Positions 34,202-63,644 of a DNA stretch of 64,000 nucleotides are shown here, in pieces. Every line of letters starts with the position of its first letter. Position 1 is the first letter of the stretch. Below the pieces are notes generated by a model that saw only the letters and a list, made by a program, of their open reading frames with translations, did no database searches and was not told where the DNA came from. A program made the position numbers and the translations under genes. This DNA comes from Betaproteobacteria bacterium (GTDB lineage Bacteria > Pseudomonadota > Gammaproteobacteria > Burkholderiales > Casimicrobiaceae): NCBI GenBank assembly GCA_027492485.1, contig JAPUER010000004.1, forward strand, positions 1 through 64,000, in the 5' to 3' direction.

Positions 34202-34231
34202 CCGTTCACCCTGAGCCCGTCGAAGGGTTCG
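34202..34231 (+). repeat. Left inverted repeat of GIY-YIG element 1 (family A REP-like)
   Basis: The core is CACCCTGAGCCCGTCGAAGG, a very common type of dispersed repeat in proteobacterial genomes. It is the same family as the arms at 23354-23436. It ends 13 bases before the GIY-YIG start codon. Confidence 0.8.
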
Positions 34232-34244
34232 TGGCCCACTAGCG

Positions 34245-34607
34245 ATGGTTGATTTCGCGGTGATGTTCACGACCTACATCCTGCGCTGCGCCGACAACTC
34301 CTATTACACGGGACACACCGACAACCTCGAAGCCCGGATGAATCAGCACCATATTGCGACGGACGGCTACGTCGCCGAGCGGCGACCATTCAGCGTTGTA
34401 TGGATTGGTGAGTTTGAAACCCGCGCCGAAGCACTGTCGTTTGAGCTGAAACTGAAAGGTTGGTCGCGGGCGAAGAAGGAGGCGCTGATTGCGGGCGACT
34501 GGAATCTTGTCTCGAAACTCTCCAGGACCAGTCGAAACAGACGCGACGGGGGCTTCGACGGGCTCAGCCCGAACGTAAAAACGAATTCGGCCAGCGCGGG
34601 CGAATGA
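34245..34607 (+). CDS. Small GIY-YIG nuclease family protein 1
   Basis: A 120-residue protein of the UvrC-N/UPF0213-like GIY-YIG group. The opening strand TTYILRC and the YYTGHTDNLEARMNQH stretch give the two motif tyrosines and Arg31. Glu67 in ELKLKGW is the expected metal-binding glutamate. There is no DNA-binding domain beyond the GIY-YIG core. ATG 34263 (residue 7) is an alternative start. From about residue 101 the sequence (FDGLSPNVKTN) is simply the translated right-hand repeat, so the reading frame grew into the repeat. Base composition is lower in GC than that of aroC next to it. Cleavage activity and substrate are unproven. Confidence 0.83.
   Translation: MVDFAVMFTTYILRCADNSYYTGHTDNLEARMNQHHIATDGYVAERRPFSVVWIGEFETRAEALSFELKLKGWSRAKKEALIAGDWNLVSKLSRTSRNRRDGGFDGLSPNVKTNSASAGE
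34551..34575 (-). repeat. Right inverted repeat of GIY-YIG element 1
   Basis: Read on the minus strand it agrees with the left arm at 20 of 25 positions. The mismatches are three bases before and two after the shared 15-base core. It lies inside the last 20 codons of the GIY-YIG gene. Confidence 0.78.
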
Positions 34608-60404: not shown

Positions 60405-61580
60405 ATGACTACTGCTGCAATGACTGCCGCGGCCGCTGCCGTTCCGGCCCGCTCTCCCGGCCTCTGGTCGCTGGCGTGGAAACGCCTGCTCGGCGACCGT
60501 GTCGCGATCGTTTCGATGGTCGTGGTGATCCTGTTCCTGCTGTTGTCGCTGGCGTCGTTCGTCGGCCTGGTGGCGAAGGACTGGAATCGTGAAGTGGCAA
60601 TCAACTATGCGCCGCCGACCTTGTTCAAGGACAGCCACAAGCCGGCCGCCGATCTCAAGGCCGGCGCAAAAGACGGCGGACCCGCCGTCGACAGCGGCGT
60701 TGCCAAAGCCGAAATCGTCAATGACCGCGACCCGTTGCGCGACACCATCGGCGAGCTGAAAGGTCAGCTCGGACAAGCGACGGCGGACGTCGATTCCGGC
60801 ATCAAGATCGTCGACCCGCTGGCCGACGTGATGGCGGAGTTGCGCAAGCAACTGGGGCGCACCGGCGACGGCAGCGGCGTACAGGTCGACGAAAAGCGCG
60901 TGGACCATTTGCCGTTCGGCGCCGACAAATGGGGCCGCGACGTGCTGAAAAAGGTCATCCAGGGCTCGGAAACCTCAATCATGGTGGGTTTTTCTGCGGC
61001 GATCGTGGCGACACTGCTTGGCACGGTGCTCGGTGCCTTCGCCGGGTATTTCGGCGGCAAGACGGACGACGCGTTGAACTGGTTCTATTCGATCTTCAGT
61101 TCGATTCCCTACATCCTGCTGGTGCTGGCGATCGCCGCCGTGCTCAAGCAGAAAGGCATCGTCACGGTGGTGCTGATCCTCGGCTTGACCGGCTGGACGA
61201 GCATCTTCCGGCTGGTGCGCGCCGAGTACCTGAAGCACAAGGCGCGCGACTATGTGCGTGCGGCCAACGCGATTGGCGCCTCCAACATGCGGCGCATGTT
61301 CGTGCACATCTTCCCCAACATCTCGCACGTGGTGCTGGTGCAGCTCTCGCTGCACGTGGTGCTGTTCATCAAGAGCGAGGTGATCCTGTCGTTCCTCGGC
61401 TTCGGGGTGCCGGTCGATACCGTGAGTTGGGGTTCGATGCTGAACGAAGCGCAGAACGAGTTGATCCTCGGCTACTGGTGGCAACTGGTGGCGGCCACGG
61501 CCTTCATGGCGGTGCTGGTAACGGCATTCAGCCTGTTCACCGATGCGCTGCGCGATGCGCTCGACCCGAAGCTGAAGTAG
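60405..61580 (+). CDS. Peptide-type ABC transporter permease 2 (DppC/OppC-like) with inserted soluble segment
   Basis: A 391-residue permease. The first helix is at about residues 30-55. A soluble insert of about 110 residues follows (about 56-165) and only then the usual FGADKWGRDVLKKVIQGSETS segment and the remaining five helices; the EAA loop is DYVRAANAIGASNMRRMFVHIFPN. Standard DppC/OppC is about 300 residues with a much shorter first loop. The insert lies on the periplasmic side and could contact the large binding protein. The stop is 1 base before the GIY-YIG element. Confidence 0.93.
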   Translation: MTTAAMTAAAAAVPARSPGLWSLAWKRLLGDRVAIVSMVVVILFLLLSLASFVGLVAKDWNREVAINYAPPTLFKDSHKPAADLKAGAKDGGPAVDSGVAKAEIVNDRDPLRDTIGELKGQLGQATADVDSGIKIVDPLADVMAELRKQLGRTGDGSGVQVDEKRVDHLPFGADKWGRDVLKKVIQGSETSIMVGFSAAIVATLLGTVLGAFAGYFGGKTDDALNWFYSIFSSIPYILLVLAIAAVLKQKGIVTVVLILGLTGWTSIFRLVRAEYLKHKARDYVRAANAIGASNMRRMFVHIFPNISHVVLVQLSLHVVLFIKSEVILSFLGFGVPVDTVSWGSMLNEAQNELILGYWWQLVAATAFMAVLVTAFSLFTDALRDALDPKLK

Positions 61581-61581
61581 A

Positions 61582-61609
61582 TGTCATCCTGAGCGAAGCG
61601 AAGGATCAG
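61582..61609 (+). repeat. Left inverted repeat of GIY-YIG element 2 (family B REP-like)
   Basis: It begins TGTCATCCTGAG and ends AGCGAAGGATCAG, with three bases between. The palindromic core ATCCT...AGGAT can form a hairpin. The repeat is dispersed in many proteobacterial genomes. It shares TCA-Y-CCTGAG and CGAAGG with family A, so the two families have the same ground plan. Confidence 0.88.
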
Positions 61610-61613
61610 GTCG

Positions 61614-61946
61614 ATGAACGCCGCCGTCTATATCGTCGCAAACGAAGCGCGGACCATCTATGTCGGTGTTACCAGCAACCTGTTACGCCGCATGTATGAG
61701 CACAAGACCGAGGTGTATGACGGATTTACCAAGCGCTATGGGCTGAAACGGCTGGTGTATTTCGAGCAAACAGATGACATTCGCTCCGCGATCGAACGGG
61801 AAAAGCAATTGAAGGGCTGGCGCCGGTCGCGAAAGATTGAATTGATCGAACACAACAATTTGGACTGGGATGATCTCTCTGCGCCGTGGTTCGCGTCTGG
61901 TGGCGCGGGCGTCGTGCAGCCTGATCCTTCGCTGCTCTCAGGATGA
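61614..61946 (+). CDS. Small GIY-YIG nuclease family protein 2
   Basis: A 110-residue protein consisting of little more than a GIY-YIG core. AAVYIVAN and TIYVGVTSNLLRRMYEH give the motif tyrosines (Tyr6, Tyr16) and Arg25/Arg26; Glu63 in EKQLKGW is the expected metal ligand, in the same ELKLKGW-like setting as in the 34.2-kb protein. The start ATG lies 4 bases after the left repeat. The last residues (PDPSLLSG) are encoded by the right repeat and the stop lies within it. GC content is lower than in the flanking transporter genes. Probably able to nick or cut DNA; the target may be the repeat itself (inference). Confidence 0.86.
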   Translation: MNAAVYIVANEARTIYVGVTSNLLRRMYEHKTEVYDGFTKRYGLKRLVYFEQTDDIRSAIEREKQLKGWRRSRKIELIEHNNLDWDDLSAPWFASGGAGVVQPDPSLLSG

Positions 61947-61948
61947 CA
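61921..61948 (-). repeat. Right inverted repeat of GIY-YIG element 2
   Basis: On the minus strand it equals the left repeat except for three neighbouring bases in the middle (AGC instead of CGA). It contains the GIY-YIG stop codon and the probable ribosome site of the next gene. Confidence 0.88.
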
Positions 61949-61952
61949 AAAA

Positions 61953-63644
61953 ATGACTCAACCACTTCTCTCCGTCAAGAATCTTCGCGTCAAGTTCCGT
62001 CTCGACAAGAAGAATTCGTTCGAGGCGCTCAAGGGCATTTCCTTCGATGTCATGCCCAACCAGACCGTCGCCCTGGTGGGCGAATCCGGCTCCGGTAAAT
62101 CGGTCTGCTCGCTGGCGATTCTCGGCTTGTTGCCGAAGGAGAATGCCACCGTCGATCGCGGCAGTGTGATCGAGTTCGAGGGCAGGAATCTGCTGACCTT
62201 CTCAAACGCCGAAATGCGGGCGCTGCGCGGCAGCAAGATTTCGATGATCTTTCAGGAGCCGATGAGCTCGCTGAACCCGGTGTTCACCGTCGGCTATCAG
62301 ATCGAGGAGGTACTGAAAGAGCACAAAGGGCTCGCCGGCAACGCGGCTCGCGAGCGCGCGATTGCGCTGTTGACCGAGGTCGGCATCCCGGAGCCGACGA
62401 TCAAGATCGACAGCTTTCCGCACCAGATGTCAGGCGGCCAGCAGCAGCGGGTGATGATCGCGATGGCGATCGCCTGCGAGCCGAAACTGCTGATTGCCGA
62501 TGAGCCGACCACGGCGCTCGACGTAACCATCCAGCAGCAGATCCTCGAGCTGATCGCTGAACTGCAGAAGAAACACGGCATGAGTGTGCTCTTCATCACG
62601 CATGACCTTGCGGTGGTGGGCGACATCGCCGACCACGTGGTGGTGATGCGCCACGGCGAAATCCGCGAGCAGGGGTCGGCGAAGGACGTGTTCGCCGCGC
62701 CGAAAGACGACTACACCCGTGCGCTGCTGGCCTGCCGTCCGGTGGTCGACTCGCGCCCCAAGCGGCTGCCGGTCATCGACGACTTCATGAGCGGGCGCGC
62801 ACACGAGATGAAACTCGACCAGCGTAGCCGCGGCGTCAGGGACAGCGATCCAGTGGTGCTGGAAGTAAAGGGGGTGTGCAAGGACTTTGTCTCGCGCGAG
62901 GGCTTCTTCGGCAAACGCGTGTTCCACGCGGTGAAGGACGTGTCCTTCAAGCTGCGCAAAGGCAAGACGCTTGGCCTGGTGGGTGAATCCGGTTCCGGCA
63001 AGACAACCGTCGGCCTCACCATCATGAAGCTGCATGAGGCGACCAAGGGCGAAGCCTGGTTCGACGGCAAGAACATCCTCGCGATGGGCGAGAAAGAGTT
63101 CCTGCCGTACAAAAAGCGCATCCAGATCATCTTCCAGAACCCTTACGCATCGCTCAACCCGCGCTTCACGGTGGGCCAGATCATCTGCGAGCCGATGGTG
63201 GTGCACGGCATTGGCAGCAACGCCGACGAGCGGGCGCAGATGGCGTTCGAGCTGCTGGCGAAGGTCGGCCTGCCCGAGATGAGCTTCTACAAGTATCCGC
63301 ACGAGTTCTCGGGCGGGCAGCGGCAGCGCATTGCCATTGCTCGCTGCCTGACCATGAAGCCGGACATCCTGATCTGCGACGAATCGGTCTCCGCGCTGGA
63401 CGTGTCGGTACAGGCGCAGGTGCTCAACCTGCTGCAGGACTTGCAGGACGAATTCGGTCTCTCCTACATCTTCATCTCGCACGACCTTGCCGTCGTCAAG
63501 TACATGAGCGACGAGGTGATGGTGATGAACAACGGTGAAGTGGTGGAGCAGGGCGATTCCGATGCCCTCTATTCCGCGCCGCAGCAGCCGTATACCCGCA
63601 AGCTGCTCGATTCGATCCCGAAGGGTTTGGGCGCGCACGGCTAG
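61953..63644 (+). CDS. Peptide-type ABC transporter, fused double ATP-binding protein (DppDF/YejF-like)
   Basis: A 563-residue protein with two complete ABC modules. Module 1 has Walker A GESGSGKS (about residues 43-50), the signature [14 protein letters not shown] (about 161-174) and [12 protein letters not shown]. Module 2 has Walker [10 protein letters not shown] (about 344-352), [14 protein letters not shown] and [12 protein letters not shown]. The arrangement matches YejF and GsiA-type fused ATPases in place of the separate DppD and DppF. It energises the two permeases encoded upstream. Its ribosome site seems to come from the end of the GIY-YIG element. Confidence 0.94.

Follow-up and report, generated by a model that had tools for sequence, protein, structure and literature searches.

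A GIY-YIG nuclease gene between inverted CGTC-like palindromes in an ABC transporter operon: one case of a widespread class of putative very small mobile elements

Free-standing GIY-YIG homing endonucleases of phages are encoded by lone nuclease genes which may spread themselves. Small nuclease genes lying within inverted palindromes are known from the RAYT (TnpA-REP) REPtrons and the REPINs (PMC3116915, PMC8266576, PMC3733652). The CGTC REPs, named in a 2013 survey by Di Nocera and co-workers, have a CGTC or TGTC tag, a stem starting with AT, a short loop and a CCA tail, and they include Neisseria dRS3 (PMC3733652). The same survey reports no association of these repeats with transposase genes; they apparently have no dedicated transposase, no tyrosine transposase gene flanked by them was found, and the agent which spreads these palindromes, widespread in bacteria, was left open. 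The string GIY does not occur in PMC3733652.

The window analysed here is a stretch of 64,000 nucleotides from a genome of the Casimicrobiaceae (assembly GCA_027492485.1, contig JAPUER010000004.1). It contains a GIY-YIG gene enclosed by inverted repeats between the permease and ATPase genes of an ABC transporter operon, and a second unit of this kind elsewhere. Their features are as follows:

60405..61580, + strand: ABC transporter permease gene, left neighbour; the search for empty sites started from its end
61582..61948, no strand: entire element of 367 bp, made up of left repeat, GIY-YIG gene and right repeat, in the gap between the permease and ATPase genes
61582..61610, + strand: left palindromic repeat, 29-nt arm, TGTC tag facing out
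61601..61605, + strand: AAGGA within the left arm, 8 nt upstream of the ATG of the GIY-YIG gene, for which it is a candidate ribosome site
61614..61946, + strand: GIY-YIG nuclease gene (open reading frame, PF01541), 110 aa
61920..61948, - strand: right palindromic repeat, inverted copy, 29-nt arm, with the stop codon within it
61940..61943, + strand: AGGA within the right arm, 9 nt upstream of the ATPase ATG at 61953, candidate ribosome site for that gene
61953..63644, + strand: ABC transporter ATPase gene (open reading frame), right neighbour
34203..34607, no strand: second unit, with inverted flanks and a GIY-YIG gene of another clade (ATG at 34245, stop ending at 34607)

The two arms of the element are identical at 27 of 29 nt. 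The gene starts 3 bases past the left arm, and its TGA (61944–61946) lies within the right one. The original prediction of a 367-base unit with a single 110-codon gene, whose stop falls in the right repeat and which fills the gap between genes ending at 61580 and starting at 61953, is thus borne out. It had given the inverted arms as 28 bases with 25 identical, so that their orientation stands while their length and match do not; the start 4 bases past the left repeat holds for that shorter arm. The AGGA which it regarded as the ribosome site of the ATPase gene is where it was placed, and its role is a putative one. By supplying such candidate ribosome sites, the repeats in the window would allow the element to sit inside an operon. 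The GC content of the gene is 55%, compared with 63% and 61% for its neighbours, and its GC3 is 67% compared with 85% for both, which fits a foreign origin. As in a classical insertion sequence, terminal inverted repeats are present, and a Pfam search of the gene gave GIY-YIG as its sole match, with no transposase domain. An assembly artefact was rejected, since the unit is internal to a contig of 120 kb and similar units occur in relatives at this site and elsewhere.

The arm, TGTCATCCT...AGGATCAGG, carries a TGTC tag followed by a stem starting with AT, as in CGTC REPs. With up to 3 mismatches, its 25-mer core was found in the window only at the two arms (and never in 100 shuffles), and in 14 copies in the genome of 4.12 Mb, both arms included, while the reversed pattern gave none. 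The repeat is thus multicopy, as CGTC REPs are, and it also occurs away from the gene, a case which the original prediction had proposed to look for. The AT-starting stem is only 5 bp long, with a longer interior and a CAGG tail, in contrast to the stem of 8–9 bp, loop of 4–5 nt and CCA tail found at many of the relatives' genes. The arms also fold weakly (z -1.1 and 0.0), whereas good folding of the single strand is predicted for two canonical REPs (z -4.6 and -4.7). Because of these differences in stem, loop, tail and folding, we regard the window repeat as a CGTC-like variant and not as a member of the group. At least one CGTC-REP-like hairpin lies near the gene in 43 of 75 loci (from the best 80 of at least 578 relatives), and the stems vary by genome while the arms remain complementary, for example GTCATTCCCGCGAAAGCGGGAATCCA, GTCATGGCCGGGCTTGTCCCGGCCATCCA and GTCATCCTCGGGCTTGACCCGAGGATCCA. 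Most of the repeats flanking GIY-YIG genes belong to the CGTC-tagged REPs or are similar to them.

The genome has seven PF01541 matches, two in long frames and five in stand-alone genes, and all five of the latter are flanked by inverted repeats, each pair with its own sequence. The weakest pair belongs to the second unit, whose arms (34203–34225 and 34553–34575) match at 20 of 23 positions and form a palindrome of the CGTTC...GAGC type, unlike that of the window element. This unit lies upstream of a gene that we take to be aroC. The repeat pairing of its clade is not established, as an inverted-repeat score of at least 31 was reached by 4 of 9 loci and by 5 of 60 swapped flanks. Over this genome and its relatives, 27 of 33 loci (34 minus L071, which is too short) scored at least 30, compared with 16 of 120 swaps.

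The association extends to a set of named loci, the best 80 of at least 578 relatives found with one peptide motif, from which 4, 7 and 5 unscorable loci were left out of the following three tests, respectively. Inverted repeats scoring at least 30 flank 49 of 76 GIY-YIG genes, the corresponding figures being 7 of 533 for neighbouring genes and 26 of 300 for swapped flanks; the swaps used here, for the second clade and for DUF559 (below) may include true pairs, which slightly raises the control. With wider flanks, left and right match at 56 of 73 loci and in 61 of 579 swaps, and a GTCA tag is present in 49 of the 56. GTCA-tagged hairpins, counted regardless of left-right similarity, occur on both sides of 29 of 75 GIY-YIG genes and of 2 of 392 control genes, and their density is 22-fold higher near the GIY-YIG gene (2.25 compared with 0.10 per kb). 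The prediction would have failed with repeats placed at random relative to GIY-YIG genes, which is clearly not the case. According to the record titles, the 80 loci span Alpha-, Beta-, Gamma- and Deltaproteobacteria, Acidobacteria, Bacteroidetes, Planctomycetes, Nitrospirae, Chloroflexi, Patescibacteria, Omnitrophota and others, and the window element is one case of a widespread class. Homologues are also present in 35 plasmid records, of which 10 were examined; nine scored at least 30, the exception being the gene from Rhizobium tumorigenes. The inverted-flanked plasmid genes include those of Neisseria gonorrhoeae, Sinorhizobium meliloti, Azospirillum lipoferum and Novosphingobium aromaticivorans, and the last three species, which PMC3733652 names, have GIY-YIG genes with CGTC-REP flanks here. 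On the plasmid of A. lipoferum 4B (L165, 1483–1776) the gene lies between sufB and sufC, a second insertion internal to an operon.

To look for empty sites, the end of the permease gene was traced in 60 relatives; the junction was then inspected at 30 loci, counting that of the window. A GIY-YIG gene is present at the permease-ATPase junction in three of the 30 (this genome, G000, as well as G014 and G011), and presence in all relatives is thereby rejected. The G014 protein is 66% identical to that of the window, within a repeat of the same type; its frame of 94 residues is intact, with the TGA as its own end (the first contig of this assembly stops at the permease, and the junction was taken from a second one). 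The G011 protein is 48% identical and lies within a different repeat, CGTCACCCCGGCGAAGG... The junction is readable in 14 of the 17 genomes of the genus and is short and repeat-free in 10 of these. The empty sites anticipated by the original prediction thus exist, including in G005, the relative which is closest in the tree of the operon (86.2% nucleotide identity, support 0.999). Its junction reads TAG-CGAGGACACC-ATG, compared with TAG-AT-[element]-AAAAA-ATG in the window; the flanking bases AT and AAAAA are unlike the spacer CGAGGACACC, which is absent from the ATPase-side junction of the window. The target duplication which the prediction had proposed to look for was not seen between the filled (window) and empty (G005) junctions.

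A second site, between lpd and zapE, holds GIY-YIG elements in five of 14 readable genus genomes and other or no repeats in nine. Inverted doublets of the CCCTCTCCC type are found in this gap in three other genomes of the genus (L201, L200 and L210), and several gaps hold unrelated palindromes in different relatives. Among 11 Sphingobium plasmid records, the flanks are found with the element in seven and without it in four; the latter are 343–358 bp shorter, and two of them keep one double-headed palindrome (with both ends tagged) and one has another repeat. Such palindromes occur at some empty sites (Sphingobium TomTYG64 and TomTYG74, Sinorhizobium K101), one is all that G013 has at the window junction, and a decayed one is found at lpd-zapE in G012. 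They were noted at L173, L174, L178, L027 and L199, where relatives carry the element. They look like scars left by the collapse of repeat-gene-repeat or repeat-repeat units, in which the stretch between matching arms of the two repeats would have been deleted. The collapse of a doublet to a single palindrome is also mentioned for REPINs (PMC3116915).

The repeats and the gene also tend to occur in the same genomes. Among the 17 genus genomes, the window-type repeat is present in 14 copies in G000, 68 in G014, 31 in G004 and 0–3 in the other 14, with none in G005, and a GIY-YIG gene at least 60% identical is found only in G000 and G014. The 31 copies of G004 are thus found without a close GIY-YIG gene, in an assembly that is 87% complete; the gene may have been lost, its contig may be missing, or another enzyme may mobilize the repeats. 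For the repeat named CGTC-1, at least five copies are present in 24 of 27 genomes with the gene (match E up to 1.4e-11) and in 16 of 73 without, the latter including five genomes with weaker matches (Fisher 1e-9); the comparison within the family gives a Mann-Whitney value of 6e-8, and both tests ignore phylogeny. The gene is present with no CGTC-1 copy in G094 and G057, where it is flanked by other repeats, and in G041, where no flanking repeat scores; at least 10 copies without a strong gene match are found in nine of the 73. Two Bradyrhizobium genomes, two of Hanstruepera and that of Kaistia contain a multicopy family of the very repeat which flanks their gene: the Bradyrhizobium repeat has 135 and 34 copies in the two genomes having that flank and 0–14 in the other 12 searched, the Hanstruepera one 17 and 12 copies in the two genomes, and Kaistia has 26 exact places of its own variant among 34 matches. 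The genomes of L098 and L134 carry 20 and 41 copies of a repeat differing from that at their gene, which speaks against strict gene-repeat pairing. Deep co-evolution is not claimed either. Over the 45 loci with a canonical repeat (from the best 80 of at least 578), protein and repeat similarity correlate with a rho of 0.33, reached by one of 2000 permutations, but nearest protein neighbours share the loop class in only 11 of 45 cases, below the shuffled mean of 16.3. Where neighbouring repeats lie less than 600 bp apart, 20 of 21 pairs face outward and 15 of these 20 are spaced by 73–81 bp (all places in G005 and G011, and 40 of 44 in G002), which is the layout named REPIN for RAYT-associated REPs (PMC3116915).

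The window protein matches PF01541 with an E-value of 3.6e-13 (50 bits, cut-off 22.6), has no NCBIfam match and falls into none of the PHROGs or PADLOC families. GIY-YIG catalysis relies on two Tyr, one Arg, one Glu, one Asn and one His. Among 69 aligned members, Y6, Y16, H30 and N82 are invariant and R26 and E63 are conserved in at least 90%, and all six are invariant in a set of 21 sequences. Judging by this conservation, the proteins retain the residues expected of an active nuclease and are predicted to cut DNA. The AlphaFold model (pLDDT 87.7) is closest among solved folds to UPF0213 BH0048 (E 3.7e-5; by sequence alone, E 0.68) and then to Slx1 (E 5e-3), whose structure entry title describes a nuclease acting on branched DNA. 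The conserved residues and this likeness fit cutting at hairpins or cruciforms. A stop falls in the matched stretch at 11 named loci (from the best 80 of at least 578 relatives); it is the natural end (residue 89 or later) in eight, and it is early and in frame in L091, L113 and L145, so that some copies are decaying. In L114 and L155 the protein match continues beyond the stop into translated repeat (e.g. PSFPRKRESS), and repeats translated in this manner could append tails to annotated proteins.

Taken together, we find it reasonably probable that the unit is an autonomous GIY-YIG element with inverted palindromes of the CGTC-REP type, whose nuclease mobilizes its own palindromes as well as gene-less doublets. 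This reading draws on the anatomy, the recurrence across phyla, the empty sites, the multicopy repeats, the outward-facing doublets and the co-occurrence of gene and repeat, all of which were observed. The structure-specific nuclease would recognize its own palindrome folded as a hairpin or cruciform and cut near the GTC-tagged ends, and this would move or copy the stretch between two outward-facing tags. Its own gene would be mobilized in this way and, by action in trans, so would REPIN-like gene-less doublets; these would be its non-autonomous partners and could account for many of the solo copies. Recognition of the hairpin, position of the cut, action in trans and the intermediates are parts that we infer. 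The layout of a minimal mobile element with a GIY-YIG nuclease, as originally proposed, is supported by the empty sites, the multicopy repeats and the flank association, and the element would on this basis be mobile. As G005 has an empty site and neither the gene nor window-type repeats, gene and repeats seem to arrive together.

The same observation bears on a different scenario, in which the gene is a homing-type parasite: its nuclease would cut gene-less repeat sites, gene conversion via palindrome homology would copy the gene into them, and the repeats would spread by other means. The NCBIfam model for group I intron endonucleases, matched by 31 of the 69 members, would agree with this, as would the L165 gene sitting between whole doublets, one on each side, and the different genes at the same junction in G000, G014 and G011, as if certain gaps were preferred targets. 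Yet G005 has neither the gene nor any window-type repeat, and the window site is repeat-free in 10 genus-mates, which weakens this scenario without removing it, and we consider it unlikely.

It could also be that the repeats are moved by a RAYT, i.e. a Y1 HUH transposase, with the GIY-YIG protein as a passenger or as a host enzyme that cleans up hairpins. The RAYT domain, Y1_Tnp, is indeed common, with matches in 64 of 100 relatives and three in this genome. However, its association with the CGTC-1 repeat is not clear (matches in 30 of 40 genomes carrying five or more copies and in 34 of the 60 others; Fisher p 0.09), it has no match in G066 and G061, which carry 298 and 101 copies, and the 2013 survey found no tyrosine transposase gene flanked by CGTC repeats (PMC3733652), all of which makes such an arrangement quite improbable. 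Nearly the same must be said, with slightly less credence still, of a domesticated pair, in which the nuclease serves the host by processing hairpins of the repeats, as DNA or RNA, the repeats are kept nearby for regulation and mobility is past; the candidate ribosome sites offered by the window repeats inside an operon and the early stops in L091, L113 and L145 would suit it, but the patchy presence at two sites within the genus resembles turnover and not conservation. That small genes and palindromes merely collect in the same tolerant intergenic gaps, with no functional link, is in line with the other palindromes held by these junctions in relatives, but is highly improbable given how rarely neighbour genes are repeat-flanked (7/533 and 2/392) and how often left and right flanks match at GIY-YIG genes (56/73, compared with 61/579 swaps, in the best 80 of at least 578 relatives).

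Keeping to the autonomous GIY-YIG element as the preferred reading, the finding of a nuclease gene enclosed by copies of the repeat turns the question of their spread into one which can be tested directly, both in vitro and with E. coli K-12. Movement of DNA by this nuclease, if it occurs, would amount to transposition by a GIY-YIG enzyme, with an element of less than 400 bp in the window. A further pair may be present in the same genomes, where DUF559 (PF04480) genes lie within inverted CCCTC...GAGGG palindromes (CCCTCTCCC...GGGAGAGGG), with a score of at least 34 in 18 of 22 loci compared with 8 of 60 swaps (22 of 30 matches were examined, and 8 near contig ends, broken or partial were omitted). 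The palindrome-flanked loci are L220, L222–L224, L226–L233, L238–L241, L244 and L246, and from their sequences they are a possible third nuclease-palindrome pair. This suggests that a small nuclease with its own palindrome (DUF559, GIY-YIG, RAYTs) may be a general route to very small mobile elements. More broadly, it is conceivable, at slightly worse than even chances, that GIY-YIG nucleases are the missing mobilizers of CGTC REPs across bacteria, by a transposition without DDE enzymes, serine or tyrosine recombinases or HUH enzymes, and one case of a wider rule by which small nucleases (HUH, GIY-YIG, DUF559) are each paired with their own palindrome class in the smallest self-spreading elements.

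A link between GIY-YIG genes and REPs was not found among the literature matches listed, which covered few subscription papers and no preprints, so that a prior report is possible; the accessible part of PMC9465073 does not make it. Among the known systems, the tag, the AT-starting stem, the short loop and the CCA tail of the CGTC REPs are common to many of the relatives' genes, and the shorter stem and the missing CCA tail set the window repeat apart from them (PMC3733652). As regards the protein, UPF0213 and Slx1-type proteins, the nearest solved structures to the model, are like that of the window in fold. To our knowledge, these GIY-YIG proteins are not known as mobile-element genes. The free-standing phage homing endonucleases share with the window unit a single nuclease gene which possibly spreads itself, and we know of no terminal palindromes or gene-less repeat family for them. 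The RAYT REPtrons, by analogy, offer the best reading of the GIY-YIG elements: they likewise have gene-less inverted doublets and several gene-repeat pairs per genome, and they differ in having an HUH Y1 transposase and GTAG tags, neither of which is present in the window unit, in place of a GIY-YIG nuclease and GTC tags (PMC3116915, PMC8266576, PMC3733652).
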